DNA from: Flexivirga meconopsidis
GTDB lineage: Bacteria > Actinomycetota > Actinomycetes > Actinomycetales > Dermatophilaceae
Reading direction: 5' to 3'
Length of the DNA: 64,000 nt
NCBI RefSeq assembly: GCF_026162425.1
Contig: NZ_JAOBQJ010000001.1
Span: 992,001-1,056,000 of the forward strand
Part shown: in pieces, positions 1 through 15,764 of the stretch
Layout of the letters: each line of letters starts with the position of its first letter
How positions within the stretch are numbered: the first letter of the stretch is position 1
Notes under the pieces: model-generated
The model's database searches: none
What the model saw: the letters and a program-made list of their open reading frames with translations, nothing else
Told to the model about the DNA's origin: nothing
Made by a program: the position numbers and the translations under genes

Positions 1-2
1 AT

Positions 3-1532
3 CTCGACGGTGATCTGGAGGTCACCTCCGACGGCCGTCGCACTGTTCGAGTGCCGTTTGCCATAAGTGATTTCGAGATCGACACCGTGATCGACATCGA
101 CCGCAAGGTAGTGCTCAGTGCGCAGATGGACGGCTACCGCTACGAGGCACCTTCGTCGGAGTGCGACGCACCGATCTCGGCGCCTACCGCCGACGCGGTG
201 GCTGTCTCCGCCGGCGACCTGCTGCTCCGGGTCAACCCGGATGGCAGCGCCGAGGTCTCGCACCCCGATCACCTCGGCCCGGTGTTCACCTCGCTGTGGC
301 CGACGGCGGGCCGTGGCCGCGTCACTGGTTGGCGAGCTGGACACCCACGCACGCTGACGGTCGAACGGCGGCCGGACGGAGTGACCGTCGCCGAAGAGCT
401 CGAGGATGGTCGGATCGAATGCCACTTCAGCCTGACACCGGATGCACTGTTTCAGCGATTTGTCGCGGAGAATGTCGAGCCCCAGCTCCTACTGCGCAGC
501 TATCACCTCGCAGGCTTGCGCACCGGTTGGGTGCGGGTCTCCACGTCGCAGGAAGATCGCACCGATCCGATCGGTGACGGGCTCGGCGTGCGCGACACGG
601 GTCAACTCCCGGCAGCGCAGCGCCTGCTCCAACCTGGCAGCCAAATCCGCTGGCACCAGGACGATTTCAGCCGTGATATCACGGTGACTGCTGACGTAAC
701 CGGACTAGGCGTGGTCACCAGCACCATGCTCGAACGTCGCTTCGACCCGAGCGACGACCCCGGCCTGCGCATCCACTTCGGTATGGCGCAAGACACCCTC
801 GCCCGGGCAGGCGAGACCGGGTCGGTCGACGCACTGCCAGGACGCACCGACGCGCAGGAGGCACATGCGCAGACGGCTCGCTCCGATGCTGCGGCGGGCG
901 GCGTGATCGGATGGAAGCCGTTCGCGCGCAACGTGTTCCGCTCCGCCCATCCGCGGTCGCGGTCGTTCGCGCACAACCCGCGTTGGTCGGCCGGCGTCTG
1001 GGTGACCCGAGACGTCACCCGTGAGTCCCGTAGCCACGGAATCGGCTGGGGTGTGCCTGAGCCGGGAAGATGGAGTGACGAGGCGGGATCGCTCCGCTAC
1101 GAAGGCCTGTCCCTGCGGGCGGTCAGCTCGGCGAGAGCCGGCATCGCCGCGCTCACCGTGGCCGTTGCTGACAGCACACCCGCGGCCGATGGGGAACTGG
1201 TCGTCTGGCTGACGCCGGACAGCCCGTCCCGTGCTGACGCGGTCTGTTGGTCGCCGGGCGGGACTCCCGTCATACATCCACTGGGGGAGCGGTGGCAGCG
1301 CTGGGCGAGCGCAGTCGACCTGCCGCTTCGCGATGGCCGGTGGCTGCACATCGACTCGTCGGACGCAGGGGGTGACCACCCCGAGATTCTGGTGCGATCC
1401 ACCGAATCCGGCCCACTGGTCGGCTGCCTCACCCGCTCGGGGTGCGCGCAGCAAGCCACCGCGACCTGGCGATTCGCCGTGCTCAACCATCCGCTCGACG
1501 CCACCGAGAACGCCCTGAAACAACCGGCATAA
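3..1532 (+). CDS. Unknown protein, first gene of the KS-CLF cluster (5' truncated)
   Basis: The reading frame is already open at the left edge, so the N-terminus lies outside the window; the GTG at 51 is the first in-window start but the frame continues upstream with normal codons. About 509 residues are visible. I do not recognise the family. The sequence is rich in beta-strand-like, alternating polar and hydrophobic segments, with many Trp and Arg residues and no membrane segment, which would fit a large soluble beta-sandwich protein. It ends 59 bp before the GcvT-like gene, on the same strand, and is probably co-transcribed with it. A role in the adjoining biosynthetic cluster is inferred from position only. 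Confidence 0.7.
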   Translation, partial: LDGDLEVTSDGRRTVRVPFAISDFEIDTVIDIDRKVVLSAQMDGYRYEAPSSECDAPISAPTADAVAVSAGDLLLRVNPDGSAEVSHPDHLGPVFTSLWPTAGRGRVTGWRAGHPRTLTVERRPDGVTVAEELEDGRIECHFSLTPDALFQRFVAENVEPQLLLRSYHLAGLRTGWVRVSTSQEDRTDPIGDGLGVRDTGQLPAAQRLLQPGSQIRWHQDDFSRDITVTADVTGLGVVTSTMLERRFDPSDDPGLRIHFGMAQDTLARAGETGSVDALPGRTDAQEAHAQTARSDAAAGGVIGWKPFARNVFRSAHPRSRSFAHNPRWSAGVWVTRDVTRESRSHGIGWGVPEPGRWSDEAGSLRYEGLSLRAVSSARAGIAALTVAVADSTPAADGELVVWLTPDSPSRADAVCWSPGGTPVIHPLGERWQRWASAVDLPLRDGRWLHIDSSDAGGDHPEILVRSTESGPLVGCLTRSGCAQQATATWRFAVLNHPLDATENALKQPA

Positions 1533-1591
1533 GGCATCAATAACCGCACCGGACAAGATCCGAAAACCACTCACTGCAAAGGACATCAGCC

Positions 1592-2626
1592 ATGACACTC
1601 AGCACTGACACCGAACTGCTCCCCGGCCAGCAGGAGACTGCTGCGGCCGACTACGACACGGTCCGTAGCGGCAGTGCCTGCTATCAGCCGGCCGGCGTGC
1701 TGGTCCGCGTAACTGGCGCCGACCGCCTCGACTACCTGGACACCGTGCTGTCCAAGAGCACCGAGTTCGTCGAGCCCGATCAGGTCCGCGAGGTACTGCT
1801 GCTCACCGACGACGCCGAGCCGTTCGCGGTCGTCACCCACTGGGAGCTCGAAGACGAGACCTGGCTGCTGACGCAGACCCCGGTCGCCGTCGCCGACGTC
1901 GAGGCATTCTTCGCGCAGGCCGCAGATGGCGTCGAGATCGACGTCGCGCCCGCCGGATGGGGCGTTGTCGCGGTGGAAGGACCTGCGTCATGGAAGGTCG
2001 CGGCCCACTACCTCGACTTCGACATCTCGGGTCTGATCCTGCACCAGAGTGCACCGGCCGAGGTCGATGGTGTCGACGGCACTCACTACATCGCCCGCGT
2101 CGGCACCACCGGAGAGTACGGTTACGTGCTGCTGTCTGACACCTTCGAGCAGGTCCGCGCGCACGTGCTTGCCACCACCGAGGGCGAGGGGGGCCGACAG
2201 GTCTCCGCCACCGGACTGAGCCGCGTGCAGGCAGAGGCCGGAAACCCTTTCTATGCAGCAGGATTCGCCGGCCTGGACGTCAGCGCTGCCGACCTGGCGT
2301 GGTTGGTGGACTGGCAGCGCATTGGTGAGTTCCGCGGGTCGGACGCCTTGGCCGCCCCCACCCGTGACGACCGCAAGATCACACCCGTGGTCGTGTCGAA
2401 CGACGCGGCACTCGAGCCAGGGGCCGAGGTGCGCGCGGGTGACACCGTCGTCGGTTCGGTCGCGTTCGAGGCTCCCGCCGGCAACCCCGCCGAGCGGCTC
2501 GCCTTCGTGGTGGTCGACGCCCCGTTCTGGGTCTCGGGCACCGAGCTGCAAGCGGGCGATGCCGAGCTGCAGACGGTCAGCATCCCGCGGGTTGTCTCCC
2601 GGTCGACCACCGAGCGGATGGGCTGA
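1592..2626 (+). CDS. GcvT-like folate-binding aminomethyltransferase family protein
   Basis: A 344-aa protein of the glycine-cleavage T-protein / folate-binding family. Visible family features are the N-terminal strand GVLVRVTGADRLDYLD (about residues 35-50), the GTTGEYGYVLLSD segment (about 170-182) and the substrate-domain stretch around AEAGNPFYAAGFAGLD (about 212-227), followed by a C-terminal barrel. True GcvT works with GcvH and GcvP, and neither is nearby. Paralogues of this family also carry out tetrahydrofolate-dependent demethylation, for example DmdA, so a one-carbon transfer or O/N-demethylation in the cluster is possible. The ATG has an AAAGGAC ribosome site. The gene ends 5 bp before the KS-CLF gene, which implies translational coupling. 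Family assignment is firm; the substrate is unknown. Confidence 0.8.
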   Translation: MTLSTDTELLPGQQETAAADYDTVRSGSACYQPAGVLVRVTGADRLDYLDTVLSKSTEFVEPDQVREVLLLTDDAEPFAVVTHWELEDETWLLTQTPVAVADVEAFFAQAADGVEIDVAPAGWGVVAVEGPASWKVAAHYLDFDISGLILHQSAPAEVDGVDGTHYIARVGTTGEYGYVLLSDTFEQVRAHVLATTEGEGGRQVSATGLSRVQAEAGNPFYAAGFAGLDVSAADLAWLVDWQRIGEFRGSDALAAPTRDDRKITPVVVSNDAALEPGAEVRAGDTVVGSVAFEAPAGNPAERLAFVVVDAPFWVSGTELQAGDAELQTVSIPRVVSRSTTERMG

Positions 2627-2631
2627 GCAGC

Positions 2632-4938
2632 ATGACACGAGTCGTAGTCACCGGCCTTGGACTGATCTGCGACGTCGGGAACACGGTGCAGGAGTGCTGG
2701 GATTCCCTCGTCTCTGGTCGACCGGGTATCCGGGAGAACACGTTGTTCGACACCTCCGGTATGCCGACCGCGCTCGTCGGCGAGGCAGCCTTCGAGGGTG
2801 AGGACGGAGTCGACCGCTGCGTCGGCCTCGGCTCGGTCGCCATCGGAGAAGCCCTGCAGGACGCAGGGATCGACCCCGGGCAGCTGGGCGAGCGCCTCGG
2901 GTTCATCGTCGGCAGCAGCCTTGGCCCGATGCCGAGCCTGCAGGAATTCCATCGGGACTACCTGGTCAACGGTGCCGATAGCTCCGCTCCTGGGCTGGCC
3001 GCCAGATCGGTGTTGCATAGCGCCGCCGACGCACTCGCCGCCGGGTTCGGGGTGACCGGTCCCCGGGCGGTGACCTCCAACGCATGCGCCGCCAGCGCGG
3101 TCGCGATCGGCTACGCGGCCGAGTTGTTGTGGAGCGGCGAGGTTGACGCCGTGCTGACCGGAGGCGTCGACCCGCTCGCCTCCCTGTCGGCATACGGTTT
3201 CAGCAGCCTGGGTGCGCTCGCCGAAGGCCCGTGCTCACCGTTGGCCGCGTCCGACGGCCTGACCCTCGGCGAGGGTGCCGGATTCCTGGTCCTGGAGACG
3301 CTTGAGTCGGCGCAGGAACGCGGCGCGACCGTGTACGCCGAGGTCACCGGCTATGGCCTCACCTGTGACGGCTACCACCAGACCGCGCCCGACCCGTCGG
3401 GTGACGGGCCGCTTCGGTCGATGTCCGAAGCGCTGCGCAGCTCCGGGCTGACCGCGACCGACGTCGACTACATCAATATGCACGGCACCGGGACCCCGAC
3501 CAACGACGCGGTCGAGCCCAAGTCGGTGCGGTTGCTGCTTGGCGGCCAGTCAGCTCCGGCAGTCAGCTCGACGAAGTCGATGACTGGGCACACACTCGGT
3601 GCGGCCGGGGCCGTGGAGGCGATCTGTTCGGTGCTGGCGATCCACCACGGGATGCTGCCCCCCACAGTCAACACGGGGGACGCCGCCGACCGCAGCGGGC
3701 TGGACATCGTGCCCGAGGCCGGTCGTAAGCAGGACACCTCGGTCGCGTTGTCCAACTCCTTCGCCTTCGGCGGCAACAACGCGTCAGTGGTGCTGACCGC
3801 GCCCGGACGGGTGGAAAGACTCCCGCAGGCAAAAGCGAAGAAGGTTGTGATCAGCGGTGTTTCGGGGCTCACCGCGGAGGCGGTGACCTCGGACGAGCTG
3901 CGGACCGCTCTGCGCGATGGGTCGTCGACCTTCGGCGCTCCGCGTGACATCGCGGGGCTGGGCTCGATCGCCTTCGGGGCGATCGACACCCGGCCACTCG
4001 CCCGGAAGATCAACCCGGCGAAGGCGCGTCGCATGGATCCGATGAGCATCCTCGCAGCTGCGGCCGTCACCGATCTCTACGCGCAGATCGGCAAGCCATC
4101 CCGCGCGGTGGCTGCCGACACCGGTGTCGTGTTCGGGACTGGCTTCGGTCCGTTGAGTGCAGTGGGCGACTTCCATACCGGACTGGTCCGAGGCGGGGTC
4201 TCCGGCGCTAACGCACTCGCCTTTCCGAATACCGTCGTCAACGCCGCCGCCGGACACCTGGCGATGCTCAACCGCTACCGGGGTTACGCCGCGACGCTCA
4301 CGTGTGGCGGCACCAGCGCGCTGGACGCGCTACATCTTGCGACGAAGGTGATGGAGCGCGGCGCCGCGGACCGGATCCTGGTGGTCGTCGTCGATGAGTT
4401 CCCGCAGGTCGCGCTCGACGTGCAGGCGCGGATTCATCCCTACGCGGCGGACGGCGTGGTCCGAGTCGGTGGAGGCACTGGGTCGGTCCTGGCCGACGGA
4501 GCGGTCGCGGTGTTGCTGGAGACCGAGGAGGCCGCCGAGGCGGCCGGTAGTGCACCGATCGGCCGCTTCCTCGGTTTCGGGGCCTGCGCCGACAACGCCG
4601 GTGGCGCGCGGTTGGCTGACGACGGCGCTGCATGGGGCCGGTCCTTTGAGCTCGCGCTGAAGCGCTCCGGTCATGAGGCGGTGGACCTGTTCGTGTCGGC
4701 GGGCAACGGTTACGCCCTGGTCGACGACGCCGAACAGCTCGCCATGAAGGCGGCCGGACTAGAGAGCGCCGAGACGATTGCGCCCAAGGAGATTGTCGGC
4801 GAAACCTATGGCTCCGCAGCGGGTTTCGGTCTCATCGCGGCTCTGGACCGGCTGCAGGCAAACGCCACAGGGGTCGCACTCCTTTCCAGTTTCGCGTATG
4901 GCGCGAGCTACCACGCGGCCGTCGTCGGTTCCTGCTGA
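2632..4938 (+). CDS. Fused beta-ketoacyl synthase - chain-length-factor-like protein
   Basis: A 768-aa single ORF with two thiolase-fold ketosynthase halves. The first half (about 1-395) has a complete KAS II triad: Cys152 in SNACAASAVAIG, His284 in MHGTGTPTND and His320 in KSMTGHTLGAAGA. The second half (from about 400) aligns by eye to the same fold but reads TLTCGGTSALDAL where the active-site Cys is expected: Gly559 sits at the Cys position, with a Cys one residue earlier. The two His motifs are replaced by SAGNG and GETYGSAAG. That is the pattern of a catalytically dead chain-length factor. In type II polyketide systems KS and CLF are normally separate subunits forming a heterodimer; here they are covalently joined. 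No acyl carrier protein is seen in the window. Probably elongates an ACP-bound chain. Confidence 0.85.
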   Translation: MTRVVVTGLGLICDVGNTVQECWDSLVSGRPGIRENTLFDTSGMPTALVGEAAFEGEDGVDRCVGLGSVAIGEALQDAGIDPGQLGERLGFIVGSSLGPMPSLQEFHRDYLVNGADSSAPGLAARSVLHSAADALAAGFGVTGPRAVTSNACAASAVAIGYAAELLWSGEVDAVLTGGVDPLASLSAYGFSSLGALAEGPCSPLAASDGLTLGEGAGFLVLETLESAQERGATVYAEVTGYGLTCDGYHQTAPDPSGDGPLRSMSEALRSSGLTATDVDYINMHGTGTPTNDAVEPKSVRLLLGGQSAPAVSSTKSMTGHTLGAAGAVEAICSVLAIHHGMLPPTVNTGDAADRSGLDIVPEAGRKQDTSVALSNSFAFGGNNASVVLTAPGRVERLPQAKAKKVVISGVSGLTAEAVTSDELRTALRDGSSTFGAPRDIAGLGSIAFGAIDTRPLARKINPAKARRMDPMSILAAAAVTDLYAQIGKPSRAVAADTGVVFGTGFGPLSAVGDFHTGLVRGGVSGANALAFPNTVVNAAAGHLAMLNRYRGYAATLTCGGTSALDALHLATKVMERGAADRILVVVVDEFPQVALDVQARIHPYAADGVVRVGGGTGSVLADGAVAVLLETEEAAEAAGSAPIGRFLGFGACADNAGGARLADDGAAWGRSFELALKRSGHEAVDLFVSAGNGYALVDDAEQLAMKAAGLESAETIAPKEIVGETYGSAAGFGLIAALDRLQANATGVALLSSFAYGASYHAAVVGSC

Positions 4939-4950
4939 GCGGATCGACTC

Positions 4951-5562
4951 ATGAACGCCACACCCACCACCGCCAAAGACGCCAGGCGGTCCGCCGTCCC
5001 GTTCTGGGGTCTGCGGTGGTGGGTACGGCGTTCCACCACCCCGGCACACGACGACTTCGGCCGCCGCCGTTCGGTCTCTGCTCGTGTGGAGCTGCGACGT
5101 GCTGCAACCGAACTGCTCGGCGCGGATCCGGGAGCGCCCACTGTCGACCGATTTGGACGCTGGCAGTGGCCCGAGCTGGGTGTGCACGGTTCGACGTCCA
5201 GCGTGCCCGGTATCGCAGCCGTCGCGCTCTCGACCGTTGGCCCAGTCGGTGTCGACGTGCAGGACGACCGGCAGCGGCCGCACACGATGCTGTGGGCGCG
5301 CCGAAAGCTCGGCCTACCCGACGCTCCGAGCGTCGAAAGGGCAGTAGGACTAGGCGATTTCAGCGAGATCGAAGCCATGCTCAAAGCCGCAGGCTGGGTC
5401 GGGCGTCAGCCCGACGTGGTCCCGGTCCCGCCGTGGTCGCCCGGCTGGCGCCGGGTCTCCGACGCCTGGTGGGTCCGTTCGACGTATCTGCCGGCGTTGC
5501 GAGCGCATGTGGCGCTCGCGGCCGGCCAACCATTACCCGTCTCGATCGAAGGATTGTCATGA
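4951..5562 (+). CDS. Divergent Sfp-type phosphopantetheinyl transferase-like protein
   Basis: A 203-aa protein whose centre matches the 4'-phosphopantetheinyl transferase signature. VGVDVQD supplies the metal-binding Asp102, and 39 residues later IEAMLKAAG supplies Glu141 and Lys145 in the KEAxxKxxG spacing, although the first Lys is Ile here. The preceding HGSTSSVPGIAAVALS resembles the SISHS block, with the usual His-Ser altered. Such enzymes load the phosphopantetheine arm onto carrier proteins, which fits its position 12 bp after the KS-CLF gene. The degenerate motifs leave open an inactive homologue or a very divergent enzyme. The stop codon overlaps the next start (ATGA-type overlap at 5559-5562). 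Confidence 0.6.
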   Translation: MNATPTTAKDARRSAVPFWGLRWWVRRSTTPAHDDFGRRRSVSARVELRRAATELLGADPGAPTVDRFGRWQWPELGVHGSTSSVPGIAAVALSTVGPVGVDVQDDRQRPHTMLWARRKLGLPDAPSVERAVGLGDFSEIEAMLKAAGWVGRQPDVVPVPPWSPGWRRVSDAWWVRSTYLPALRAHVALAAGQPLPVSIEGLS

Positions 5563-6773
5563 CCGTCATCGACGTCACGAGCTACCGACGGCGCGTGTCG
5601 CACGTCGAGCGCTCCTATCTCAACGCCCTCGTCAAGGGCAGCGCGTGCACTATCCAGTTGGTCGTGGAGTGCGCCGGAGACCTCGATCTGACCGCCTTGT
5701 CCGCAGCCGTCGACCGCGCGACCGACGCCAACCCCGGCATGCGGGTCACTCGCAAGGGCACCTGGTGGAAGGAGGGTGGTGAGCCACCCGGTGTTCGAAT
5801 CATCGATCCTGCTGTTCCGTTGCGGGACAACGGATTTGCCCACCCGTGGTGTTACGAGGGCTTCGATATCGTCCGGGGTCCGGTCGCCGATGTCATCGTG
5901 CAGCCTGGTCGTGCCGGTGAACCTCATCTGCTGATCTTCCGCACCAGCCACGCCGTGTCCGATGGCCGCGGGCTCGAGCACTGGGTGCACGACATCTTCC
6001 GCGCGATGCGGGGCGAGGAGCCGCATGGCTCATTCAGCGCGCTCACCGACGCACACTTTGCAGCCAGGGCAGCTGGGTTGACCGTGCGGGACGGAGGTTT
6101 CCAGCCCTGTTCGGTCGGGTCCTTCGCCTCGCCCTTCGCACCTGCGGGTGACCTAGCTGACGCCGGTCGTCCGGTGTGGACCCAGCGCACGATCACCGTC
6201 GGTGGGCAGGCTGGCGTCGCGGCTCGGATCGCGGTGGCCGTCGCCCGCCGGGCGCCACGGCCGGGCACCGACGGTGACGCCCGCGTCGTCATACCCGTCG
6301 ACATGCGGCGGCACGACAAGTCGGTGCGGTCGACGGCAAACCTGAGCGCGCCGATCTTCCTCGACGTCGATGCCACCGATGACTGGTCGGCGGTGCACGG
6401 CGACCTGCTTGTCGCGCTCATGTCGGCCAAGGAAGCCGCTCCGCTGGTCAATGGCTATCGGGGCAGCAACGGCTTCGCCCAGACGTTGTCCGACGCTGCG
6501 GCAGGCCCGGAGGTGCGCGACGGCATCGAATGGCACCCCTGCAGTGCGGTGATCTCGGACCACGGCACCGCGCACCTGCCGAACTTCAGCGGTGGCGGCC
6601 TGACCGCGCGACGGTTGTTCACCCTGCCGATGTTGGTGCCCTACTCGGCAATGTTCGTCAGCGCGTTCACCAGTCGGGATCAATTGACCGTGACGATCTG
6701 CCACCGCGACGGGCCCGGGGCGCGCGACACCGCCGAGTCGCTACTCGACGAGATTCAGGAGCTGCTCTCGTGA
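5559..6773 (+). CDS. Condensation-domain-like / HxxxDG acyltransferase
   Basis: A 404-aa protein starting at the ATG that overlaps the preceding stop; a much longer open frame upstream is the shadow of the PPTase gene. It carries SHAVSDGRG with His131, Asp135 and Gly136, the HHxxxDG-type active site of NRPS condensation domains, PapA-type and wax-ester acyltransferases. A second half ends with a segment resembling the DFGWG region in position but not in sequence. Free-standing enzymes of this superfamily typically esterify or amidate a carrier-bound acyl chain, so it is a candidate for releasing or decorating the product made by the KS-CLF protein. The stop TGA overlaps the GTG start of the transporter gene (6770). 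Superfamily confident, reaction inferred. Confidence 0.7.
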   Translation: MTVIDVTSYRRRVSHVERSYLNALVKGSACTIQLVVECAGDLDLTALSAAVDRATDANPGMRVTRKGTWWKEGGEPPGVRIIDPAVPLRDNGFAHPWCYEGFDIVRGPVADVIVQPGRAGEPHLLIFRTSHAVSDGRGLEHWVHDIFRAMRGEEPHGSFSALTDAHFAARAAGLTVRDGGFQPCSVGSFASPFAPAGDLADAGRPVWTQRTITVGGQAGVAARIAVAVARRAPRPGTDGDARVVIPVDMRRHDKSVRSTANLSAPIFLDVDATDDWSAVHGDLLVALMSAKEAAPLVNGYRGSNGFAQTLSDAAAGPEVRDGIEWHPCSAVISDHGTAHLPNFSGGGLTARRLFTLPMLVPYSAMFVSAFTSRDQLTVTICHRDGPGARDTAESLLDEIQELLS

Positions 6774-8245
6774 CCATTCAAGCGTATCGGCCACGGCACG
6801 CTGCCTCAGACTCGAAAATCACTGAAAAACAGGGTGTTTCGTCGCCAGGGAGCATGGGGATTCCGCTCAGCATCGTCGTGTTGTCCATCGTCGGTTCCTT
6901 CCTGCCACTCCTCGACAGCACCGTCGTCAACGTCTCCCTCGACGCCACCGCGCGCAGCCTCGGCGGACTCAGCGATGTGCAGTGGGTCGTTACCGCTTAC
7001 TTGCTCGCGCTTGCCGCGTCAATGCCCTTGGTGAGTTGGATGACCAGACGCTTCGGCATCCGCACCGTATTTGCTTCTGCTGTCGGCGGATTCGCCGCCG
7101 GGTCAGCGATGTGCGCATTCGCGCCGACGCTGCAAATCCTGGTTGCCGGCCGTGTCGTGTCGGGGCTTGCCGGGGGTGTGCTCGCGCCCGCAGCCACGAT
7201 CCTGCTCGTGCAAAGCGTGCCTCGTGAGCGGATCGCCAAGGTGCAGGCGTTGAGCGGGTCGGTGATGCTCGTCGGCCCGCTGCTCGGCCCGACCATTGGT
7301 GGCTTGTTGATCGAGGCGGGTGGTTGGCCGGCCGTCTACTGGGTGAACCTGCCGATCTGCGGTTTCTGCCTGGTTCGCGCACTGCGCACGATCCCGCGCA
7401 ATTCCGATCATCGCCAGCAGATTCCGCTCGACAAGCTCGGGGCGGTCACCGGGTCGGCCGCCGCCGTGCTGCTGGTCCTCGCGATCCATCTGATGGGCGT
7501 CGCCCAGGGTCTGACGCAGACGGCGGCGCTTGTGCTGGCCGGTGCTGTTGCCACGGGGATGATCTTCGTGCGCTGCGAGTTGCGGCAGCGCGCGCCGATG
7601 ACCGACCTGCGCCTGCTGAGCAACCGGATCTACCGGCTCTCGGCCAGCAACGTCTTCATGCTCGGCTTCGTGCTCTACGGGCCGATGGTCGTCATGCCGC
7701 TCTACTTGCAGCTCGGTCGTGGCAACAGCAGTGTGACCACCGGTTTGTTGCTCTCGGTCGGCGGTGCCGGAGTGCTGGGCTCGGCCGCCGTGTCCAGCAG
7801 GGCGATCAAGCGGTTCGGCTGCGGAGCGACCATGCTGTTCGGCATCACGCTGACGTTGGTGTCCACTGCGCCGCTGTTGTCGCTGCGCGCAGACACGTCA
7901 TACACGCTCATCCTGGCGTGTCTGGTGGTGCGTGGCGCCGGCGTCGGCATGACGATCGTGCCCGCCATGACCAGTGCCTTCGCCAGCATTCCGTCGTCCT
8001 CGGTGCCCGATGCCTCCCCGCAGCTGAACCTGCTGCAGCGCATCGGCGGAGCGATCTCGGCGACCCTGGTCACGGTTGCGGTGCAACACAGCCTGCAACA
8101 CCCCAACGTGGTGCCGGGCAACGCGTTCGGCACACCGTTCGCGTGGGTGCTCGGCACCTCGTTCGCGACGCTGGTGCCCGCCGTGCTTCTCGCACTTGCC
8201 GAGCGCGCGCGGCACCGCGAGGGAGACCTGCCGCAAAGCGCGTGA
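6770..8245 (+). CDS. MFS drug-type exporter (DHA2 / 14-TM family)
   Basis: A 491-aa integral membrane transporter starting at GTG 6770, which overlaps the preceding TGA. It opens with the family motif LPLLDSTVVNVSLDATARSL, then a run of hydrophobic helices and the loop motif WMTRRFGIRT, typical of EmrB/QacA-like proton-driven exporters. Length and helix number fit the 14-helix DHA2 group. Its tight coupling to the biosynthetic genes suggests export of the cluster product or self-resistance. It is the last gene of the coupled run; the next gene (SARP) begins 116 bp downstream. Confidence 0.85.
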   Translation: MTIQAYRPRHAASDSKITEKQGVSSPGSMGIPLSIVVLSIVGSFLPLLDSTVVNVSLDATARSLGGLSDVQWVVTAYLLALAASMPLVSWMTRRFGIRTVFASAVGGFAAGSAMCAFAPTLQILVAGRVVSGLAGGVLAPAATILLVQSVPRERIAKVQALSGSVMLVGPLLGPTIGGLLIEAGGWPAVYWVNLPICGFCLVRALRTIPRNSDHRQQIPLDKLGAVTGSAAAVLLVLAIHLMGVAQGLTQTAALVLAGAVATGMIFVRCELRQRAPMTDLRLLSNRIYRLSASNVFMLGFVLYGPMVVMPLYLQLGRGNSSVTTGLLLSVGGAGVLGSAAVSSRAIKRFGCGATMLFGITLTLVSTAPLLSLRADTSYTLILACLVVRGAGVGMTIVPAMTSAFASIPSSSVPDASPQLNLLQRIGGAISATLVTVAVQHSLQHPNVVPGNAFGTPFAWVLGTSFATLVPAVLLALAERARHREGDLPQSA

Positions 8246-8361
8246 CTTGGAACGGATGTCGTGCTGACTTGCCGCTGACACGACCCTGACCTCCGCCTCG
8301 ACCGACGCACCCTCGATCTCGTCACGAGTGTGCGCCGGTCGGCGCGGGGAGGCGGTCAGCG

Positions 8362-10191
8362 ATGACTGAAACATTGATGACGAACGGGTGGGGTAGGACG
8401 AGCGGTGCCGGGCGCATCGAGATCGGTTTGCTCGGACCGCTTCGAGCGGGCGCCGACGGCGCCGAACTCTGCCTGGGCGGACGGCGCCAGCAGACGGTGC
8501 TGGCCATGCTCGCGATGGCGCACGGTCGACCGGTGGCGGTGGACACCCTGGCGGATGTGATCTGGGGCGAGGGAGCACCGGCAACGCATCGCACCCAGAT
8601 CGCGATCTGCGTGGCGAACCTGCGCAAGATCTTTGCGCCCTACGCCGCTGGTCGGCAGACGATCCGGACCGTCGCGCCAGGGTATGCCCTGGTGATGGAT
8701 GCCTTCGACCTCGACACCGATGGGTTCTGCGCGGGGGTCGAGGCAGCGCGCCACAGCAGTCGGTCAGGAAATATCGAGCACGCGATCATCCTGATGGACC
8801 GTGCCTTGGACGTATGGCGGGGGGAGGCCTACCAAGGTTTCGACGCGCTTGACATTCGAACGGTCGCCGAAGGGTTGGCCGAGCGCCGACTGGATGCGGA
8901 GGAGGAGCGGTTCGCCTGGCTGAGCGACGCAGGCCGACAGCGTGAGGCGCTGCCGGAGCTGCACGAGTTCGTCGCCGCCCATCCGACCCGAGATCAGGCA
9001 CGCTGGCTGCTCATCGACGGACTGTGCGCGGTCGAGCGCCGCGTCGACGCGCTGGAGCAGTTGCGCAGCTATCGCGATTACCTGCGGGACAACCTCGGCA
9101 TTGAACCGGACGATAAGTTCCAGCGGCTCCAGGCGCGACTGCTGACCGAGACCGGCGCTCCGGCGGCGGCGCCAGTCGACCGGCCACGCCCCGGCGGCCG
9201 GCGTTCTGAGGGGAGCCGACCAGTGTTCGGCAGGGAGCACGAGCTTGCCCTGCTCGACGGCTTCTGGGATGGCCGTGAGGGCAGTGACGAACCGGTCGTC
9301 ATCACCGGAAAACCGCTGGTGGGCAAGACAACCCTGATCCAAGGCTGGCTTCGAGGTATGACGGGGCTCGCGACGGATGGGGTCCACGTTGTCGGAGTCG
9401 AGCGGGTCGAAGAGGACGAGGTCGAGCGCCGGGTACTGATTGCGGCGCTGCGCCGACTGAGCCCGCAGGTGCAGGTCGATGACGCACCGGTAGCCATGCT
9501 CCGCCATCATGTGGAGGCCGTGCTGGCCACCCGCTGCACGGTGCTGGTGCTCGATGCAGTCCCGTCCTCGATGCTCGCTCGGCTGCCGCGCAGCGGACCG
9601 GACTCGCTGGTGATCGCGACCTCCCGCAGCCGACGGTGCGGCGCCGCGCAGGTGCTGCAACTGCGGCCGTGGTCGCGCGAGGTCGCCCGCGACTATCTGC
9701 GTTCGCACGTCGCCGACGCCCAGCGGGACGACGATCCCAACGTGCTCGACGCGGTGCTCGCGATCACCGGCGGCGCACCTGCCGTGGTGGTCGGTGTCTG
9801 CAGTCTGCTCGACAAGCGCCCGCACTGGACGGTAGGAGACCTTGCCGCGCAGACCGAGGTGCTGCTGCGCGAGATCTGCGACGCCGATGCCGGGTGCGAC
9901 GCTGCGGTCCGGTCGATTCGGGCGCATCTACGGCCGGCATCCCTCGTCGCGCTGGAGGCGATGGCGCTCCGGGCCGACACCGACCTGACCGCTGTCGACG
10001 TCGCCCGACTGGTGGCTCGTCCGGTGGGCGAGACGCGCCGCGCGCTCGAGGCGCTCGTCGACGAATCGGTGCTGCATATCGTCGGCCGAGACGACATCGG
10101 CACCTTCCGTTATGGGATCAGCGAGGTCATAGCCACCTGTGCCCGCCTCGCGGCACCGGCCGGGACGGCGCTGTCGAGCATCCCCGCCTGA
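8362..10191 (+). CDS. SARP/AfsR-type transcriptional activator with P-loop domain
   Basis: A 609-aa regulator. Residues about 20-110 form an OmpR-like winged helix (LLGPLRAGADGAELCLGGRR ... LADVIWGEGAP), and about 115-265 form the BTAD tetratricopeptide region ending in EQLRSYRDYLRDNLGIEPDD. From about 290 there is an NTPase module with the Walker A motif GKPLVGKTTL near residue 318 and VLVLDAV as a likely Walker B. The TPR tail of full AfsR is missing, so this is a medium-length SARP. Proteins of this class activate antibiotic clusters by binding direct repeats upstream of the -10 element, so it is the likely cluster activator. A GGGGAGG ribosome site lies before the ATG; a second ATG five codons in is possible. 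Confidence 0.85.
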   Translation: MTETLMTNGWGRTSGAGRIEIGLLGPLRAGADGAELCLGGRRQQTVLAMLAMAHGRPVAVDTLADVIWGEGAPATHRTQIAICVANLRKIFAPYAAGRQTIRTVAPGYALVMDAFDLDTDGFCAGVEAARHSSRSGNIEHAIILMDRALDVWRGEAYQGFDALDIRTVAEGLAERRLDAEEERFAWLSDAGRQREALPELHEFVAAHPTRDQARWLLIDGLCAVERRVDALEQLRSYRDYLRDNLGIEPDDKFQRLQARLLTETGAPAAAPVDRPRPGGRRSEGSRPVFGREHELALLDGFWDGREGSDEPVVITGKPLVGKTTLIQGWLRGMTGLATDGVHVVGVERVEEDEVERRVLIAALRRLSPQVQVDDAPVAMLRHHVEAVLATRCTVLVLDAVPSSMLARLPRSGPDSLVIATSRSRRCGAAQVLQLRPWSREVARDYLRSHVADAQRDDDPNVLDAVLAITGGAPAVVVGVCSLLDKRPHWTVGDLAAQTEVLLREICDADAGCDAAVRSIRAHLRPASLVALEAMALRADTDLTAVDVARLVARPVGETRRALEALVDESVLHIVGRDDIGTFRYGISEVIATCARLAAPAGTALSSIPA

Positions 10192-10267
10192 CCAGCGCCC
10201 ATCGGGCGAGCGGCCCCCGCCATACGAAAGCGTGGCGATAACCCGGCGATGAGCGACCCTCCTAGCG

Positions 10268-10295
10268 TCGGCGGCGTACACCACAGCTGTCGGCG
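10268..10295 (+). promoter_or_regulatory. Candidate SARP operator: TCGGCG direct repeat, 22-bp period
   Basis: Two copies of TCGGCG start at 10268 and 10290, exactly 22 bp apart, in the gap between the SARP gene and the SbnA-like gene. SARP activators bind short direct repeats spaced by 11 or 22 bp on one face of the helix. In GC-rich DNA a hexamer pair is weak evidence, so this is a suggestion. Confidence 0.25.
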
Positions 10296-10402
10296 CCGGC
10301 CCCGGACTTTCGGGCACGGCGCGACCTACGCCGAGGGGGATCGATGCGCACTGCACCTTCCGGGCGGCCGAACCGGCGCCCGATCGGATCCGACGTCACG
10401 GG

Positions 10403-11422
10403 GTGGGCCCGATGCCCGTCGTGAGCCGACCGGAGGACTTCCACGAGGACGAACTGTTCGTCGACGCCGAGCCGATCGTGGGCCGACCCATCCACCTCAA
10501 GGTCGAAGGAGCCAACCTGGCTGGCTCCATCAAACTCAAGGCCGCCGCGTCCATGATCGACGCTGCGCAGGCCGAGGGGCGGCTGCCTGCCGGGACCACC
10601 CTGGTCGAGTCGTCCTCCGGCAATCTCGGTGTCGCACTGGCGACTATCGCCGCTCATCGGGGGCTGAGCTTTCTCTGTGTCACCGACGACCGGTGCAACC
10701 CAGTGACCCTGCGGTTGATGCGCGCACTGGGGGCACAGGTGCACGTCGTCACCCGGCCGGACCCTGAGCAGGGATACCTGGGCGCCCGGTTGCGAGTCGT
10801 CCGCGAGCTCGCCGGGCGGCCGGGGCATCTATGGCTGAATCAGTATGCGAATGAGGCAAATTGGGGTGCGCACTACCGTCGCACCGCGCCGGCCGTGCTG
10901 CGTAACTTCCCGCACCTGGACGTGCTCTTCGTCGGTGCCGGCACTACTGGAACGCTGATGGGCTGCGCTCGGTACGTCCGGGAAACCACCGGCGGACGCA
11001 CCCGGGTGGTCGGTGTCGACAGCGTCGGCAGCGTCACCTTCGGTACGCCCGCCGGTCCGCGACACGTACCCGGCCTCGGTGCGGGCGTGCCGCCGGCGAT
11101 GTTCGACCCCGATCTCGTGGATGACTTCGTGTTGGTGCCGGAGATCCGCGGCATCCAGGTATGTCGCGAACTCGCCGCCGGCGGATACCTCTTCGGAGGA
11201 TCCACCGGAACGGTGCTCGCGGGTGCACTCGACTGGCTCGCGACCCACGACCCGGCCCGGAAGCTGTCGGCCGTCACGATCGCACCGGATCTGGGCGAGC
11301 GTTACCTCGACAGCGTGTACGACGACGACTGGGTGCGGCAGCATTTCGGCCTCGATGCGCTGAACGTGCCCCCGCCGACTGCCGAGGAGGAGCCCGATGC
11401 GCAACTGCCGCGCAGCGCGTAA
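10403..11422 (+). CDS. SbnA-like PLP-dependent cysteine-synthase-family enzyme
   Basis: A 339-aa fold-type II PLP enzyme. The Schiff-base lysine is Lys44 in GSIKLKAA, the phosphate/substrate loop is VESSSGNLGVALA (about 68-80), and GAGTTGTLMG (about 175-184) is the PLP-phosphate glycine loop. Overall it resembles SbnA, which makes a diaminopropionate precursor from O-phosphoserine and glutamate, and O-phosphoserine-type cysteine synthases. No SbnB partner is present in the window, so diaminopropionate production is not proven. The start is uncertain: GTG 10403, ATG 10412 and GTG 10421 are all in frame and none has a clear ribosome site. It follows the SARP on the same strand and is counted as part of the cluster. 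Confidence 0.75.
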   Translation: MGPMPVVSRPEDFHEDELFVDAEPIVGRPIHLKVEGANLAGSIKLKAAASMIDAAQAEGRLPAGTTLVESSSGNLGVALATIAAHRGLSFLCVTDDRCNPVTLRLMRALGAQVHVVTRPDPEQGYLGARLRVVRELAGRPGHLWLNQYANEANWGAHYRRTAPAVLRNFPHLDVLFVGAGTTGTLMGCARYVRETTGGRTRVVGVDSVGSVTFGTPAGPRHVPGLGAGVPPAMFDPDLVDDFVLVPEIRGIQVCRELAAGGYLFGGSTGTVLAGALDWLATHDPARKLSAVTIAPDLGERYLDSVYDDDWVRQHFGLDALNVPPPTAEEEPDAQLPRSA

Positions 11423-11494
11423 TGCGGGACCGCAGCTCACCGGCAGGTTGCGGGGTAGAGGGCGGCTGCACCGCCATACGAAAGGAGAAGGCGT

Positions 11495-11854
11495 ATGTCG
11501 ACCATGGATCAGCGGTGCGCCACGGCGCTCGAGGTCGAGGATGACGCGGCGGCTGATCGGCTGCTGGCCCAGTGGAACGCTTTGCCGGGCCGACGCGCCA
11601 CATCGCACGCTCTGATCCACGCCGGGGACCACGCGCCGATCGCGAGCCTGGCGGTCAGTGACGACATGTTCGACGTCGTCGTCGAGGAGTTGATCCTGGC
11701 CGGTTCGCGGGTCCAGGTGCCGGCCGGTCACGCCACCCTAGTGCGGTCCACCGAACGGACAGCGGTGGTACTCACCCCATGGCCGACACAAACAGCAGGG
11801 CCACCTCGCGGAGTACGAGATGGCCCGGCTGCCCTCAAGAGCGGTAGCTCCTGA
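11495..11854 (+). CDS. Hypothetical 119-aa protein at the end of the cluster
   Basis: A small acidic protein with an excellent AAGGAGAAGG ribosome site before ATG 11495. The sequence has an alpha/beta appearance (TSHALIHAGDHAPIASLAV, then FDVVVEELILAGSRVQVPAG) and a Pro/Gly-rich tail. No cysteine pairs, signal peptide or membrane helix are seen and I do not recognise the family. It lies 72 bp after the SbnA-like gene, with a 14-bp sequence (11471-11484) shared with the region upstream of that gene. Probably the last plus-strand gene of the cluster. Confidence 0.6.
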   Translation: MSTMDQRCATALEVEDDAAADRLLAQWNALPGRRATSHALIHAGDHAPIASLAVSDDMFDVVVEELILAGSRVQVPAGHATLVRSTERTAVVLTPWPTQTAGPPRGVRDGPAALKSGSS

Positions 11855-11921
11855 TCATTCAATTGTCTCGGCGTGAATCGCCGTCCTCAGGTCGACACTG
11901 AACCGTCGATCCGCTGCACCG

Positions 11922-12092
11922 TTACCAGCAGGCGACACACAGCGGGCTAGGCTGCCCTGGTCCATCGGCTCGTACGACTCCGGACGTACGAGCCGATGCG
12001 CGGTGCGTCACCTGCGACCCCGTCGTGATGCCCCCCACGACGCTAGCGGTTGCAACGGCGACGATCGCGGACTTCTTGATCCAGGTCTTCAC
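11922..12092 (-). CDS. Small secreted peptide (56 aa) with Cys-rich C-terminus
   Basis: A short gene read on the minus strand from GTG 12092 to TAA at 11922-11924. A very strong GGGAGGGG ribosome site lies about 8 nt upstream, and a TTCCAC-N17-CATAGT promoter-like pair lies about 60 nt before the start. The product opens KTWIKKSAIVAVATASVVGG, a textbook short signal sequence (lysines, then a hydrophobic core), and ends PSPLCVACW, with a CxxC pair and a terminal Trp. The mature part would be about 30 residues. It could be a secreted signalling or bioactive peptide or the product of a small RiPP-like locus, but no modifying enzyme is adjacent. It faces the KS-CLF cluster convergently. Coding status is inferred from the ribosome site and signal peptide. 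Confidence 0.55.
   Translation of the reverse strand: MKTWIKKSAIVAVATASVVGGITTGSQVTHRASARTSGVVRADGPGQPSPLCVACW
11963..11998. repeat. Perfect 14-bp inverted repeat (hairpin) at the cluster boundary
   Basis: CATCGGCTCGTACG, an 8-nt loop, then CGTACGAGCCGATG. It lies downstream of the plus-strand 119-aa gene and inside the 3' part of the minus-strand peptide gene. There is no T tract, so it would be an I-shaped terminator at most; it could also be a protein-binding site. Confidence 0.6.
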
Positions 12093-12276
12093 TAGGTTTC
12101 CCCTCCCAGTTCGGCGCTCCGTGTTGAGCGCACACCAGAACTATGGGCCAGCAGGGGGCACCGTGGAAGGGATTCGGCAGGGAGCCAACCGGCCATGGCA
12201 TCTTGTTACCTCTCCGGACCGGCCGAGTGTCGGCACTCGAGCTGCGCGTTCTGCGGCATCCGGGTGCTGATGCGGC

Positions 12277-14037
12277 ATGCTGCCTGCCATGTACTTCGTC
12301 GGTCTCGACCTCGCGTGGGGCTCGCGCAACCCAACCGGTGTCGCGGTGCTGGACGATGACGGGGTGCTGGCGCACCTGTCGGCGGTGGTGTCCGACGCCG
12401 AGATCGTGCAGGCGCTGACGCCATACCTGGACGACCGATGCGTGGTGGGCGTCGACGCACCGCTGGTGGTCACCAACGCCACGGGCAGTCGGCAGGCGGA
12501 GAAGGATCTCGGCCGGGACTTCGCGCCCTTCCAAGCAGGAGCGCACCCGACCAACACCGGAAAGTTCCCGGACGGCACGCGCGGGGCACGCCTCTGCGCG
12601 GCGTTGAGCCTCGACATGGACCCGACGTCGACCGCGCCACGGCGCGCCGTCGAGGTCTACCCGCATCCGGCGACGGTGGCGCTGTTCCGGCTGGGCCGGA
12701 CCCTGAAATACAAGAACAAACCCGGCCGCACCTTGGAGCAGCTTCGCGCCGAGCTGCTCACCCTCGTGCGCCTGCTGGAGTCACTCTCCGCGGCCCAGCC
12801 GCAGATGCGGCTGGTGTCCTCGGCGGCCTGGCGCGACCTGGTGACCGGCATCGAGCGGGCCACCCGCAAGTCGCAGCTGCGCGACGCCGAGGACCAGGTC
12901 GACGCGGTCGTCTGTGCGTATGTCGTGCTGCTGCGCGAGCGGTCACCGGCCGCCGTCGTCACCTACGGCAACTTCGCCGACGGCTATATCGTCACCCCGC
13001 GCCTGCCCGCTGACCTGAAGCCTTCCCCGCGGGTGCCGAAGGTTGAGCGTCGGGTGGACGTCGTCCGTCGCGCGACCCAGGAGTATGCCGCGCGCTTCCC
13101 GCAACTGCAGCTGGCCGCAACCGAGGCAGTGGCGCTCGTGACCGGGATCCTCGACGACGCGGGCCTGAACTACCTGAGCGTGACCGGCCGTGCCAAGAGC
13201 ATCGCGTCGTTCGCCGAGAAGGCCGGTCGACGGGCCGGTGATGCGCCGCTCTACGCCGACCCCCTGCACGACATCGGCGATTTGATCGGGGTGCGGGTCA
13301 TCACCTACGTGCGCGGCGACGTCGCCGCGGTCGCCGAGCTCCTCGCGGCCGAGGCCGTGGTCCTCGACGACCGCGACCTCGGTCAGGAGACCGCCAGCGA
13401 AGGACGCTTCGGATACGCCAGCCGGCACCTTCAGGTACGCCCTGCCGAGGAGGACGTCCCGTCATACCCTGGGCTGGAGGGGCGCCAGTTGCAGGTGCAG
13501 ATCCGCACAGTGCTGCAGCACGCGTGGGCCGAGTTCGAGCACGACATCCGTTACAAGGGAACGGTGCCCAGGGCGCACCGTTCCGACTTCGATCGTCGCT
13601 TCACGCTTGCGGCGGGCCTGCTGGAGTTGGCCGACCAGGAGTTCAGCACGATCCGGGACACGCTGAGCCGGGCGGTGCCCGAGGCAGAGGAGCACGACGT
13701 CGCCGACGACCGGATCAGCCCGCGTGAGCTGGCGGCATACCTCGCCGGCCAGTACGCCGAGGCGGGCTGGTCGCGTCCCGATCACTACGCGTGGATTGCC
13801 GGCCTCGTGCACGAACTCGGCATCGGCTCGCTCGCCGACCTGGCCAGCGCTCTGCGCGCGGTCGACACCGACGAGATCGACCGGGTGATGGCATATCGCA
13901 CCCCGCCCGGTGCGGTACGACGGCTCGACGATGCGCTACTGGCGGCCTTCGGAGACCGGTATGTCACGCTGCCCGGCAACTCCCACCGGGTCGAACGGCT
14001 GCGCACCAGACTGGCCCGGCTCCGGCCTACCGAATGA
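12277..14037 (+). CDS. RelZ-like fusion: DUF429 (RNase H-fold) + RelA/SpoT synthetase domain
   Basis: A 586-aa protein (582 if ATG 12289 is used). Residues 1-250 are a DUF429 domain with VGLDLAWG at the start, VVGVDAPL and DQVDAVVCAYV, the acidic pattern of an RNase H-like fold. Residues about 255-480 are a RelA/SpoT nucleotidyltransferase domain (KSIASFAEK, DIGDLIGVRVITYV, QVQIRTVLQHAWAEFEHD), and about 100 alpha-helical residues follow. This matches the layout of mycobacterial RelZ (RNase HII plus (p)ppGpp synthetase), which would act on R-loops and stress signalling. The usual ExQIRT motif reads QxQIRT here (Gln406), so synthetase activity may be altered. It overlaps the convergent hydroxylase gene by 11 bp. 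Confidence 0.75.
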   Translation: MLPAMYFVGLDLAWGSRNPTGVAVLDDDGVLAHLSAVVSDAEIVQALTPYLDDRCVVGVDAPLVVTNATGSRQAEKDLGRDFAPFQAGAHPTNTGKFPDGTRGARLCAALSLDMDPTSTAPRRAVEVYPHPATVALFRLGRTLKYKNKPGRTLEQLRAELLTLVRLLESLSAAQPQMRLVSSAAWRDLVTGIERATRKSQLRDAEDQVDAVVCAYVVLLRERSPAAVVTYGNFADGYIVTPRLPADLKPSPRVPKVERRVDVVRRATQEYAARFPQLQLAATEAVALVTGILDDAGLNYLSVTGRAKSIASFAEKAGRRAGDAPLYADPLHDIGDLIGVRVITYVRGDVAAVAELLAAEAVVLDDRDLGQETASEGRFGYASRHLQVRPAEEDVPSYPGLEGRQLQVQIRTVLQHAWAEFEHDIRYKGTVPRAHRSDFDRRFTLAAGLLELADQEFSTIRDTLSRAVPEAEEHDVADDRISPRELAAYLAGQYAEAGWSRPDHYAWIAGLVHELGIGSLADLASALRAVDTDEIDRVMAYRTPPGAVRRLDDALLAAFGDRYVTLPGNSHRVERLRTRLARLRPTE

Positions 14038-15634
14038 CGCCGGCGGGACGCAGCGCGCCTGCTGTCCGCACCCCGAGCTGCTCGCCCAGCCGACCGAGCA
14101 GATGGTTGAGTTCCTCGCTGGTGCAGGCGGTTCCGTAACTGTAGAAGTCCGGTCGCACGATGATCGCCCGGAAGCCGCCGTCCCGGAACCACGCGTGATA
14201 GGTGGCATCGACGTCGACGACGCTGTCGGCGCCGCGCCGTGATCGGCTGACGTGGACGGCCCGTGCACCGATCGCGTCGAGCACGGCACGTCCGGCGGTG
14301 TCGATGCCGTTCAACAGCTCGCCGTCGGGGCTGAGCAGGTGCCACGTGTTACCGAGCACATCGTCCGCTCGTCCGGTGCGGTCACCGGTGCAGACCCTGC
14401 CCTGCACCGCGAGGTGGCCGGCCTCGGAATCGGTTGCCGCATCGATGATTCCGCAGGTGATCCAGGGAAACGGAGCAGGCGGCGGCGCTTGCTCTGAGAG
14501 GAACAACCGGTCACGCTCGGCCGCCGCGTCGGGGTCGCTGACGCAGACGATCCGGCCAAGCTCGATGGAGGTCCTGATCACCTGATCGACGTGCGGCCGA
14601 CGCTCGTCGGTGTAGGAATCGAGCAGGGCCTGCGGGCAGACACCGCGCAGCACCAGGTCGAGTTTCCAGGCGAGGTTCGCCGCGTCGCGGAAGCCGGAGC
14701 ACATGCCCTGTCCCATGAACGGCGGCATGAGATGGGCCGCGTCTCCGACGAGCACGATGCGACCGCACCGGAAGTCCTTGGCCAGCAGCGAGCGGAACGT
14801 GTAGACCGCACGCCGGACGATCGACGCGTTCTCCGGGGTGACGCCCCAGCGCTTCAGCAGCTGCCAGCCGCGTGATTCCTGCGTCATACCCTCCGGTGTC
14901 TCGCCCGGCAGCAGCATGAACTCCCAGCGGGCGTGCTCGCGTCCGAGCCACCGGAACAACGAGATCGGCCGCTCAGGGTCGCAGATCTGCCCGGCTTCTG
15001 GCATGTCGATGTGCATGTCCGGGTCGTTCGGGCGGACATCAAGGACGAGCCAGTCCTCCTCGAATCCGTAGTCGTCCCAACGGATTCCCGCCGACTGGCG
15101 AGTGAAGGAGCCCGCCCCGTCGGCGCCGATCAGGTAACGGCCGGTGACTGTTCGGGTGCGGCCGGTCGGAGCCCATGAGCCGGAGTCGCGGGTGCCCTCG
15201 CGGACTGTCAGCTCCACGTGATCGTCGAACTGCTCGATGCGGGTGGCCTCCCACCCGAGGTTCACTTCGACCTCGGGCACCTTGTCGACCGCCGCACGAA
15301 GCGCGGTCTCGACGTGGGGTTGGTACATGAGGTAGTCCGAGCGCCAGCCGGAGGGCGTCGACTGGTTCCAGTCCAGGTGCAGCAGGATGTCGCCGGCCGC
15401 ATTCACCCAGTCGTAGTCCGGGATCGGGATGGCGTGGCGCTCGATGGCGTCGGCGGCCCCGACGCTCTGAAAGATGCGCATCGCCTCGTGGTCGACGTGG
15501 CCAGCGCGCGACAGCGGGTAGAGGGAAGGCGAGCGCTCGAATACCGCGATCGAGTGCCCGTGCCGGCCGAGCAATGCGGCGTGTGCCTGTCCGACCGGTC
15601 CGAAGCCGATCTGGATGACGTCGTAATCGGTCAT
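14027..15634 (-). CDS. FAD-dependent aromatic hydroxylase (MhpA/PheA-type)
   Basis: A 535-aa class A flavin monooxygenase. The ATG at 15634 has a GGAGGTT ribosome site; the open frame upstream is a shadow. Motifs in order: GFGPVGQAHAALLGRHG (dinucleotide GxGxxG, residues about 9-25), the ADGAGSFTR region, and RIVLVGDAAHLMPPFMGQGM (FAD ribityl motif). Length and pattern match 3-(3-hydroxyphenyl)propionate hydroxylase and related NAD(P)H-dependent enzymes that ortho-hydroxylate a phenol or resorcinol before ring cleavage. Together with the nearby ring-cleavage cupin it is a candidate first step of the catabolic pathway. A 14-bp palindrome sits just upstream of its ribosome site. The substrate is unknown. 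Confidence 0.85.
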   Translation of the reverse strand: MTDYDVIQIGFGPVGQAHAALLGRHGHSIAVFERSPSLYPLSRAGHVDHEAMRIFQSVGAADAIERHAIPIPDYDWVNAAGDILLHLDWNQSTPSGWRSDYLMYQPHVETALRAAVDKVPEVEVNLGWEATRIEQFDDHVELTVREGTRDSGSWAPTGRTRTVTGRYLIGADGAGSFTRQSAGIRWDDYGFEEDWLVLDVRPNDPDMHIDMPEAGQICDPERPISLFRWLGREHARWEFMLLPGETPEGMTQESRGWQLLKRWGVTPENASIVRRAVYTFRSLLAKDFRCGRIVLVGDAAHLMPPFMGQGMCSGFRDAANLAWKLDLVLRGVCPQALLDSYTDERRPHVDQVIRTSIELGRIVCVSDPDAAAERDRLFLSEQAPPPAPFPWITCGIIDAATDSEAGHLAVQGRVCTGDRTGRADDVLGNTWHLLSPDGELLNGIDTAGRAVLDAIGARAVHVSRSRRGADSVVDVDATYHAWFRDGGFRAIIVRPDFYSYGTACTSEELNHLLGRLGEQLGVRTAGALRPAGVIR

Positions 15635-15649
15635 GACGCAACCTCCGAT

Positions 15650-15663: not shown

Positions 15664-15764
15664 CCAAGCAGATTGCATTCGCAACATCAACAAATATTCG
15701 AAAATAAGTCGATACACGAAAACTCCCGGCTGTCGTCGATGCCGGGTAGCGGAGTTGTTCCGCC

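Follow-up and report, generated by a model that had tools for sequence, protein, structure and literature searches.

We analyzed a 64,000-nucleotide stretch of the Flexivirga meconopsidis genome (G000:C1:992001-1056000; G and L numbers are our handles for genomes and loci), called the window, and found that a natural-product gene cluster extends into it with its right half. Eight genes between positions 1 and 11422, all on the forward strand, are part of a biosynthetic cluster that runs on leftward beyond the window. The first is the 3' part (1..1532, open reading frame (ORF) 3-1532) of a gene for a GNAT-fusion protein of 699 amino acids, with its start 568 bases to the left of window position 1 (G000:C1:991433). 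It is followed by a GcvT-like protein with the aminomethyltransferase fold (1592..2626; PF01571), a 768-amino-acid protein that carries a ketosynthase (KS) and a chain-length-factor (CLF)-like half on one chain (2632..4938; Pfam and NCBIfam matches and active-site columns), a phosphopantetheinyl transferase (PPTase)-like protein recognized at motif level only (4951..5562), and a putative stand-alone condensation/PapA5-type acyltransferase with the H-x-x-x-D-G motif (5559..6773; seven-row alignment and Foldseek on a model). The remaining three encode a DHA2-type major facilitator superfamily (MFS) exporter (6770..8245; PF07690 at 156.8 bits; TIGR00711 at 231 bits, cut-off 230.2), a Streptomyces antibiotic regulatory protein (SARP)/AfsR-type regulator with an NB-ARC-like part (8362..10191; PF03704, PF00486 and PF00931), and an SbnA-type 2,3-diaminopropionate (Dap) synthase subunit (10403..11422; TIGR03945 at 355.0 bits, cut-off 349.95). 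The sequence bears out the intergenic gaps of 5 and 12 bp as well as both 4-bp overlaps, at 5559 and 6770. The ORF positions and tight spacing given in an initial annotation of this DNA were thus confirmed, and its labels for the exporter, the SARP and the O-phosphoserine-type pyridoxal phosphate (PLP) enzyme agree with PF07690, PF03704 and TIGR03945, respectively. On its right, the cluster probably stops with SbnA (at 11422) or with a 119-amino-acid ORF (11495-11854); between these candidate ends and position 12092 no cluster gene was seen.

The initial annotation had also supposed that an acyl carrier protein (ACP) may lie to the left. We extended the sequence leftward (L002, in which window base 1 is base 18001) and found three ACPs encoded there. 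On the forward strand of L002 are genes for an MFS exporter (7625-9322), a malonyl transacylase (9319-10242), an AMP ligase (10403-11929), ACP1 (11982-12236; PF00550 at 19.6 bits, cut-off 20.8, with a G-M-D-S-M motif), a PLP aminotransferase (12233-13405), a small LanB (PEARL-like) protein (13402-15813; PF04738), a ketoreductase (KR, 15810-16559), ACP2 (16644-16931; PF00550 at 37.7 bits), a dehydratase (DH, 16931-17413) and the GNAT-fusion (17433-19532), which extends into the window; the starts of KR and DH were chosen by us. The reverse strand carries a carboxyltransferase (PF01039) that reaches the left end of L002, a SARP (1197-2240), a Pfam-recognized PPTase (2228-3001; PF01648), SbnB (3035-4069; TIGR03944 at 397.9 bits, cut-off 326.9), a third ACP (4079-4354; PF00550 at 40.4 bits), a LysA-like decarboxylase (ending at 4404) and a LuxR-like regulator (6445-7512). 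The cluster therefore spans at least some 29 kb; it ends near G000:C1:1003422 and, if the carboxyltransferase is counted, begins at 974002 or further left. The GNAT-fusion gene and the LanB-like protein, as well as the lanthipeptide genes of some relatives described below, had been overlooked in the initial annotation.

The KS half of the one-chain protein matched PF00109 (150.1 bits) and PF02801 (142.3 bits). When the two halves of six proteins were aligned together, the KS residues Cys152, His284 and His320 were retained in all six rows, including that of L035, a Spirochaetales metagenome-assembled genome (MAG) locus. The same three columns in the second half hold G (A in L035), A/S/E and E/D/V and are altered in every row, so that the second half is a partner subunit and not a second active ketosynthase, as the KS-CLF label of the initial annotation implied. 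A motif view had suggested an active-site Cys in the CLF half of the window protein; we rejected this candidate because that Cys precedes the active-site column by two positions in the joint alignment. KS-CLF is a single open frame in the window, G244, L030 and L031, and no stop interrupts the two halves in L032, L033, G1060, G1252, G1322, G1432 and G1225; the G1314 contig ends within the frame. In Propionibacterium acidifaciens (L034:8818-11092) the frame is broken within the KS half, by decay or an assembly error. Cognate KR, DH and ACP genes were found alongside KS-CLF, which places the system among the type II polyketide synthases (PKSs), and no enoyl reductase was seen in the cluster. Highly reducing type II PKSs make, for example, ishigamide. 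The comparators of this kind were avenalumic acid and aryl polyenes, as presented in parts of two reports (PMC10777205, PMC8358021). The cluster resembles such systems in its small discrete KS, CLF, KR, DH and ACP components and in that no enoyl reductase was seen, but differs in that KS and CLF share one chain and that genes for the GcvT-like protein, Dap synthesis, LanB and the GNAT-fusion are linked to them.

The GcvT-like protein exceeded the Pfam cut-off for PF01571 (55.5 bits vs. 25.6), and its family profile matched the T-protein structures 1yx2 (E 8.4e-24) and 1woo (E 2.7e-21) over almost the full length. It missed both NCBIfam gcvT cut-offs (49.6 vs. 300 and 24.6 vs. 235.85 bits), so that the assignment is to the fold family. 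When 186 genomes of the family were searched with the protein, the matches besides the window gene covered parts of it at 21-29% identity and were taken as canonical GcvT paralogues. In a tree, the 12 cluster copies other than that of the spirochaete split from 11 canonical GcvT rows with support of 100/99; 8 of 19 canonical loci had been dropped (match on the minus strand of the stretch) and L032 was left out, and the spirochaete row sat on a branch of 2.68 with unsure placement. In the spirochaete locus (L035:7321-8703), a 460-amino-acid ORF between DH and a one-chain KS-CLF combines PP-binding, GCV_T and GCV_T_C domains, the last below its cut-off (22.9 vs. 25.9). This ACP-GcvT fusion suggests that the GcvT-like protein acts on ACP-bound chains. 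The protein thus probably serves the PKS on carrier-bound chains, a reading for which the best evidence is this one MAG locus. A WbsX-type glycosyltransferase gene (L035 16227-17315) lies downstream of the fusion.

Three proteins of the cluster are candidates for acyl or amide transfer. In the GNAT-fusion, the GNAT domain (residues ~36-134, outside the window) matched PF00583 at 39.9 bits and, in a structure model, PDB GNATs; the remainder, some 500 beta-rich residues for which we aligned seven homologues, has a fold that was not recognized. GNATs put acyl groups on lipidated ribosomally synthesized and post-translationally modified peptides (RiPPs), according to part of a published account (PMC9505594). 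The protein with the H-x-x-x-D-G motif had no Pfam match, and a PDB profile search gave no meaningful match. Its AlphaFold2 model (mean predicted local distance difference test score 67.5, predicted template modelling score (pTM) 0.74) was matched by Foldseek to AzeD (E 7.8e-16, TMq 0.60), PapA5 (1q9j; E 1.5e-14, TMq 0.53) and condensation domains of nonribosomal peptide synthetases (NRPSs). On this model, the acyltransferase label that had first been read from the motif gains structural backing, and the protein may be a condensation/PapA5-type acyltransferase. The LanB-like protein matched the glutamylation domain PF04738 at 74.9 bits (cut-off 28) without PF14028, which gave no match in the window genome or in 14 control genomes; one was obtained in G244, showing that the search was able to detect it. 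With the LanB-like family profile, the structure of the small LanB 6ec7 was recovered (E 3.6e-8), as was PqqD at a weak E of 0.062, the latter over the residues that would form a part resembling a RiPP recognition element (RRE). A LanB-family protein, SnaE, forms an amide bond in an NRPS-PKS pathway with no precursor peptide found, as stated in a portion of one report (PMC11212132), and we use it as the precedent here. Both the threopeptin cluster of SnaE and the present one are thiotemplate clusters that encode a protein of the LanB N-terminal family, and in neither was a precursor peptide found; they differ in that a type II PKS stands here in place of the NRPS/PKS, and the likeness is at family level. 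In the PPTase-like protein (4951-5562), the patterns G-[IV]-D-[VL]-Q-D and F-x-E-x-E-A-x-x-K were kept in six rows, whereas no Pfam family at E<=5, ACPS included, and no meaningful PDB match by sequence or profile was found. The earlier PPTase-like label therefore holds for the conserved motif pattern but not at the level of a Pfam family.

SbnA and SbnB both exceeded the curated equivalog cut-offs for Dap synthesis. In the window genome SbnA follows the SARP and SbnB lies in the divergent operon. In 11 of 12 relatives the two genes separate LanB from KR, and in the other, G1225, they precede the transacylase and KR. Because SbnA and SbnB sit within the PKS operon of the relatives, Dap appears to be tied to the pathway, and the amino-acid-derived part of the product proposed in the initial annotation is well founded. 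In the AMP ligase, the FD and K residues were kept in six of six rows; we take these to be the counterparts of D235 and K517 of amino-acid adenylation domains, and they would be typical of amino-acid activation.

We compared 13 clusters by tblastn: that of the window and 12 further ones, from four Rhodococcus genomes, P. acidifaciens and seven genomes of the window's order or class. Searched with the C-terminal part of the GNAT-fusion, the order sample of 297 genomes gave two matches (G000 and G244) and the phylum sample of 396 gave one (G000). The GNAT-fusion profile picked out 2 of 394 genomes from the class (G000 and G1060) and, within the genus of G1060, 6 of 295, with G1060 itself among the six. 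A scan of named genomes with the CLF half gave seven loci: those of the four Rhodococcus, P. acidifaciens, and the distant L035 and L036, which stand outside the count of 13. We set L036 (Pseudoalteromonas) aside, its matches being limited to KS-CLF, DH, KR and AMP ligase. Genome contigs scanned with the GcvT-like pair yielded no relative, nor did viral contigs queried with KS-CLF or plasmids queried with the GNAT-fusion part. The results showed that SbnA, SbnB, KR, ACP2, DH, GNAT-fusion, GcvT-like protein and KS-CLF were present in all 13 clusters. PPTase-like and condensation-like proteins were found in 12 (the missing one, G1314, is cut by a contig end), a LanB-like protein also in 12, and the transacylase, AMP ligase and aminotransferase in 10, with no upstream sequence available for L032, L033 and G1314. 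The second-position MFS gene was matched in 10 clusters and ACP1 in 8, and by eye L044 has a divergent ACP at the equivalent place. The four Rhodococcus loci and that of P. acidifaciens share their gene order. Finding much the same order across Rhodococcus, P. acidifaciens and the other genomes is more than chance. The earlier view that the genes form one biosynthetic cluster is borne out by their co-occurrence and by an order largely kept in the 12 relatives; a match to a known pathway was not found in the searches made. In G1225 (L067, L068), which has no LanB match, a transacylase match lies beside KR, and the AMP ligase-ACP1-aminotransferase arm lies at the far end.

In the LANTHIPEPTIDE branch, a RamC_N-kinase-LanC-like protein (LanKC) is encoded downstream in 5 of the 13 clusters by tblastn (L030-L034), and Pfam confirmed it in L031 and L034. 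The class III lanthipeptide synthetase and a short precursor-like ORF occupy L031:14396-17032, L030:14435-17056 and L034:12979-15611. In L030, L031 and L033 a 34-amino-acid ORF follows LanKC, with a kept leader and a core that varies around S-x-x-S-x4-C; in L034 the ORF has 31 amino acids, with serines and a Cys close to the end, and L032 was matched only by the DNA pattern of start and leader. A histidine kinase gene comes next in L031 (by Pfam) and L034 (by eye). In the window genome, the LanKC search gave nothing beyond weak matches at the kinase level (best E 2.3e-5); neither LanKC nor a precursor peptide was found for this genome, and by these two marks it would not belong to the class III lipolanthine type. 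The peptides of L030, L031 and L033 were found by a looser precursor filter that misses the one in L034, and negatives from this filter are accordingly weak; an earlier, stricter scan had missed the Rhodococcus peptides. Because the PKS core is kept where the search for LanKC in the window genome failed, the core seems to be independent of the lanthipeptide. In some lineages it may acylate one.

Taken together, the parts seen (the PKS set, the arm of AMP ligase, ACP1 and aminotransferase, SbnA and SbnB, three transfer enzymes, the GcvT-like protein, exporters and SARPs) suggest a secondary-metabolite pathway that would join a reducing type II PKS chain to Dap via amide-forming enzymes, a reading from gene content to which we give about an even chance. 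In such a pathway, the carboxyltransferase and transacylase would supply malonyl-ACP2, on which KS-CLF, KR and DH would build an alpha,beta-unsaturated or polyene acyl chain. The GcvT-like protein would modify this chain while it is bound to the ACP, one-carbon transfer being the simplest form of such a change. The AMP ligase would load ACP1 with an amino acid, for which Dap is the first candidate, and the aminotransferase would remodel the ACP1-bound unit. L-2,3-Diaminopropionate would be provided by SbnA and SbnB, and the GNAT-fusion and condensation-type enzymes would link chain and amine by amide or ester bonds, while the LanB-like enzyme would add an amino acid from an aminoacyl-tRNA. The MFS protein would export the product under the control of the SARPs. 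As acyl acceptor, a class III lanthipeptide is possible in five relatives; for the window genome we assume a small molecule.

Several observations weigh against this pathway. The family has no known product, ACP1 scores below the Pfam cut-off, and the model of the GNAT-fusion is poor (pTM 0.44). In G1225, 36 kb contain no LanB match, suggesting that LanB is not essential to the core. Neither the Pfam-recognized PPTase nor the LysA-like gene was matched in the sequence covered for the 12 relatives, and for the third ACP there were general ACP matches only, in 3 of the 12. In addition, the canonical N-A-x-N-x-x-K-D segment, which we take to be the site of the catalytic Asp in T proteins, has no clear match in the GcvT-like protein. 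Thus, of the folate-type one-carbon enzyme named in the initial annotation, the GcvT fold and several invariant residues stood, whereas the folate-type role is not established. The weak conservation of the segment would fit a GcvT-like protein that acts as a scaffold, isomerase or cyclase and has lost folate chemistry; we consider this unlikely, though worth serious weight, given that all seven rows, the spirochaete included, share the residues R169, E175, Y176, G177 and E215 (window numbering). The more ambitious proposal, in which folate-dependent one-carbon transfer by a GcvT fold on ACP-bound polyketides is followed by Dap- and tRNA-dependent amide coupling and, in some lineages, by transfer to a class III lanthipeptide, so that the family would form a class of type II PKS-RiPP hybrids, is speculative and, in our view, rather doubtful.

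The remaining alternatives concern the product. The goadvionin pathway includes a GNAT. Lipidated RiPPs made with GNATs or polyketides have been described, as parts of two publications relate (PMC9505594, PMC10435860), and like the lipolanthines and goadvionins treated there, five relatives combine a class III synthetase with polyketide genes and a GNAT. All members could then make a lipolanthine-like hybrid, with the peptide and synthetase of the window genome encoded elsewhere or unrecognized. The short precursor-like ORFs beside LanKC in 5 of 13 clusters, the leader kept in Rhodococcus, and a GNAT together with a LanB that has a weakly RRE-like part would suit peptide substrates. We nevertheless find this improbable: no LanKC lies in the stretches of the six clusters from the genus of G1060 or of G244 (G1314 is contig-cut), the LanKC that G244 does have is distant in kind and far from the cluster, and the window genome, with its kinase-level matches only, has no Lant_dehydr_C. 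The left flank and window positions 1-16000 contained no precursor candidate by the filter that also misses the L034 peptide. The cluster further differs from lipolanthine and goadvionin systems in its discrete type II enzymes and in the added SbnA, SbnB and GcvT-like genes. Another alternative is a cispentacin/coronafacic-type pathway, in which a KS and a cyclization factor work on a 2-oxoglutarate starter. The cluster shares with the cispentacin genes amcB-H a KS with a partner subunit, a stand-alone ACP, an adenylating enzyme and an aminotransferase (PMC10698177, in part). However, the KS half reached 250.3 bits with the AmcF model (cut-off 325) and ACP2 34.6 bits with the AmcB model (cut-off 80), and the portion of that source considered (PMC10698177) lists no Amc function corresponding to the KR, DH and Dap genes, which the cluster has along with the GcvT-like gene. 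We hold this alternative to be very unlikely. Finally, SbnA and SbnB are the Dap synthesis pair of staphyloferrin B, in the relevant part of PMC3179956, and could feed a Dap-containing siderophore with the PKS as a separate neighbor. No siderophore synthetase family was detected among the scanned cluster proteins, unlike in staphyloferrin B synthesis, and the SbnA-SbnB pair lies inside the PKS operon in nearly all relatives, as described above. We regard the siderophore as extremely improbable.

Among the matches listed, the gene set was not described in open-licence papers (subscription papers lay outside the scope), and relative to that literature, among those matches, the combination is new. 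If the reading of a PKS chain joined to Dap is true, a one-chain KS-CLF beside a GcvT-like gene would be a genome-mining handle for uncharacterized metabolites of Rhodococcus and others, GcvT-type chemistry would gain a role on carrier-protein-bound chains, and type II PKSs would join the natural routes that lipidate amino acids and ribosomal peptides.

Three smaller features were also observed. On the reverse strand of the left flank (L002 4079-6245), the third ACP and the LysA-like decarboxylase sit between SbnB and the LuxR-like gene; they may mark an amine unit specific to the window. To the right of the cluster, a 586-amino-acid ORF (window 12277-14037) carries DUF429 and RelA_SpoT domains on the same chain. 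A 56-amino-acid ORF on the reverse strand (window 11922-12092) has a signal-like start and a C-terminal L-C-V-A-C-W, and may encode a small secreted peptide that does not belong to the cluster.

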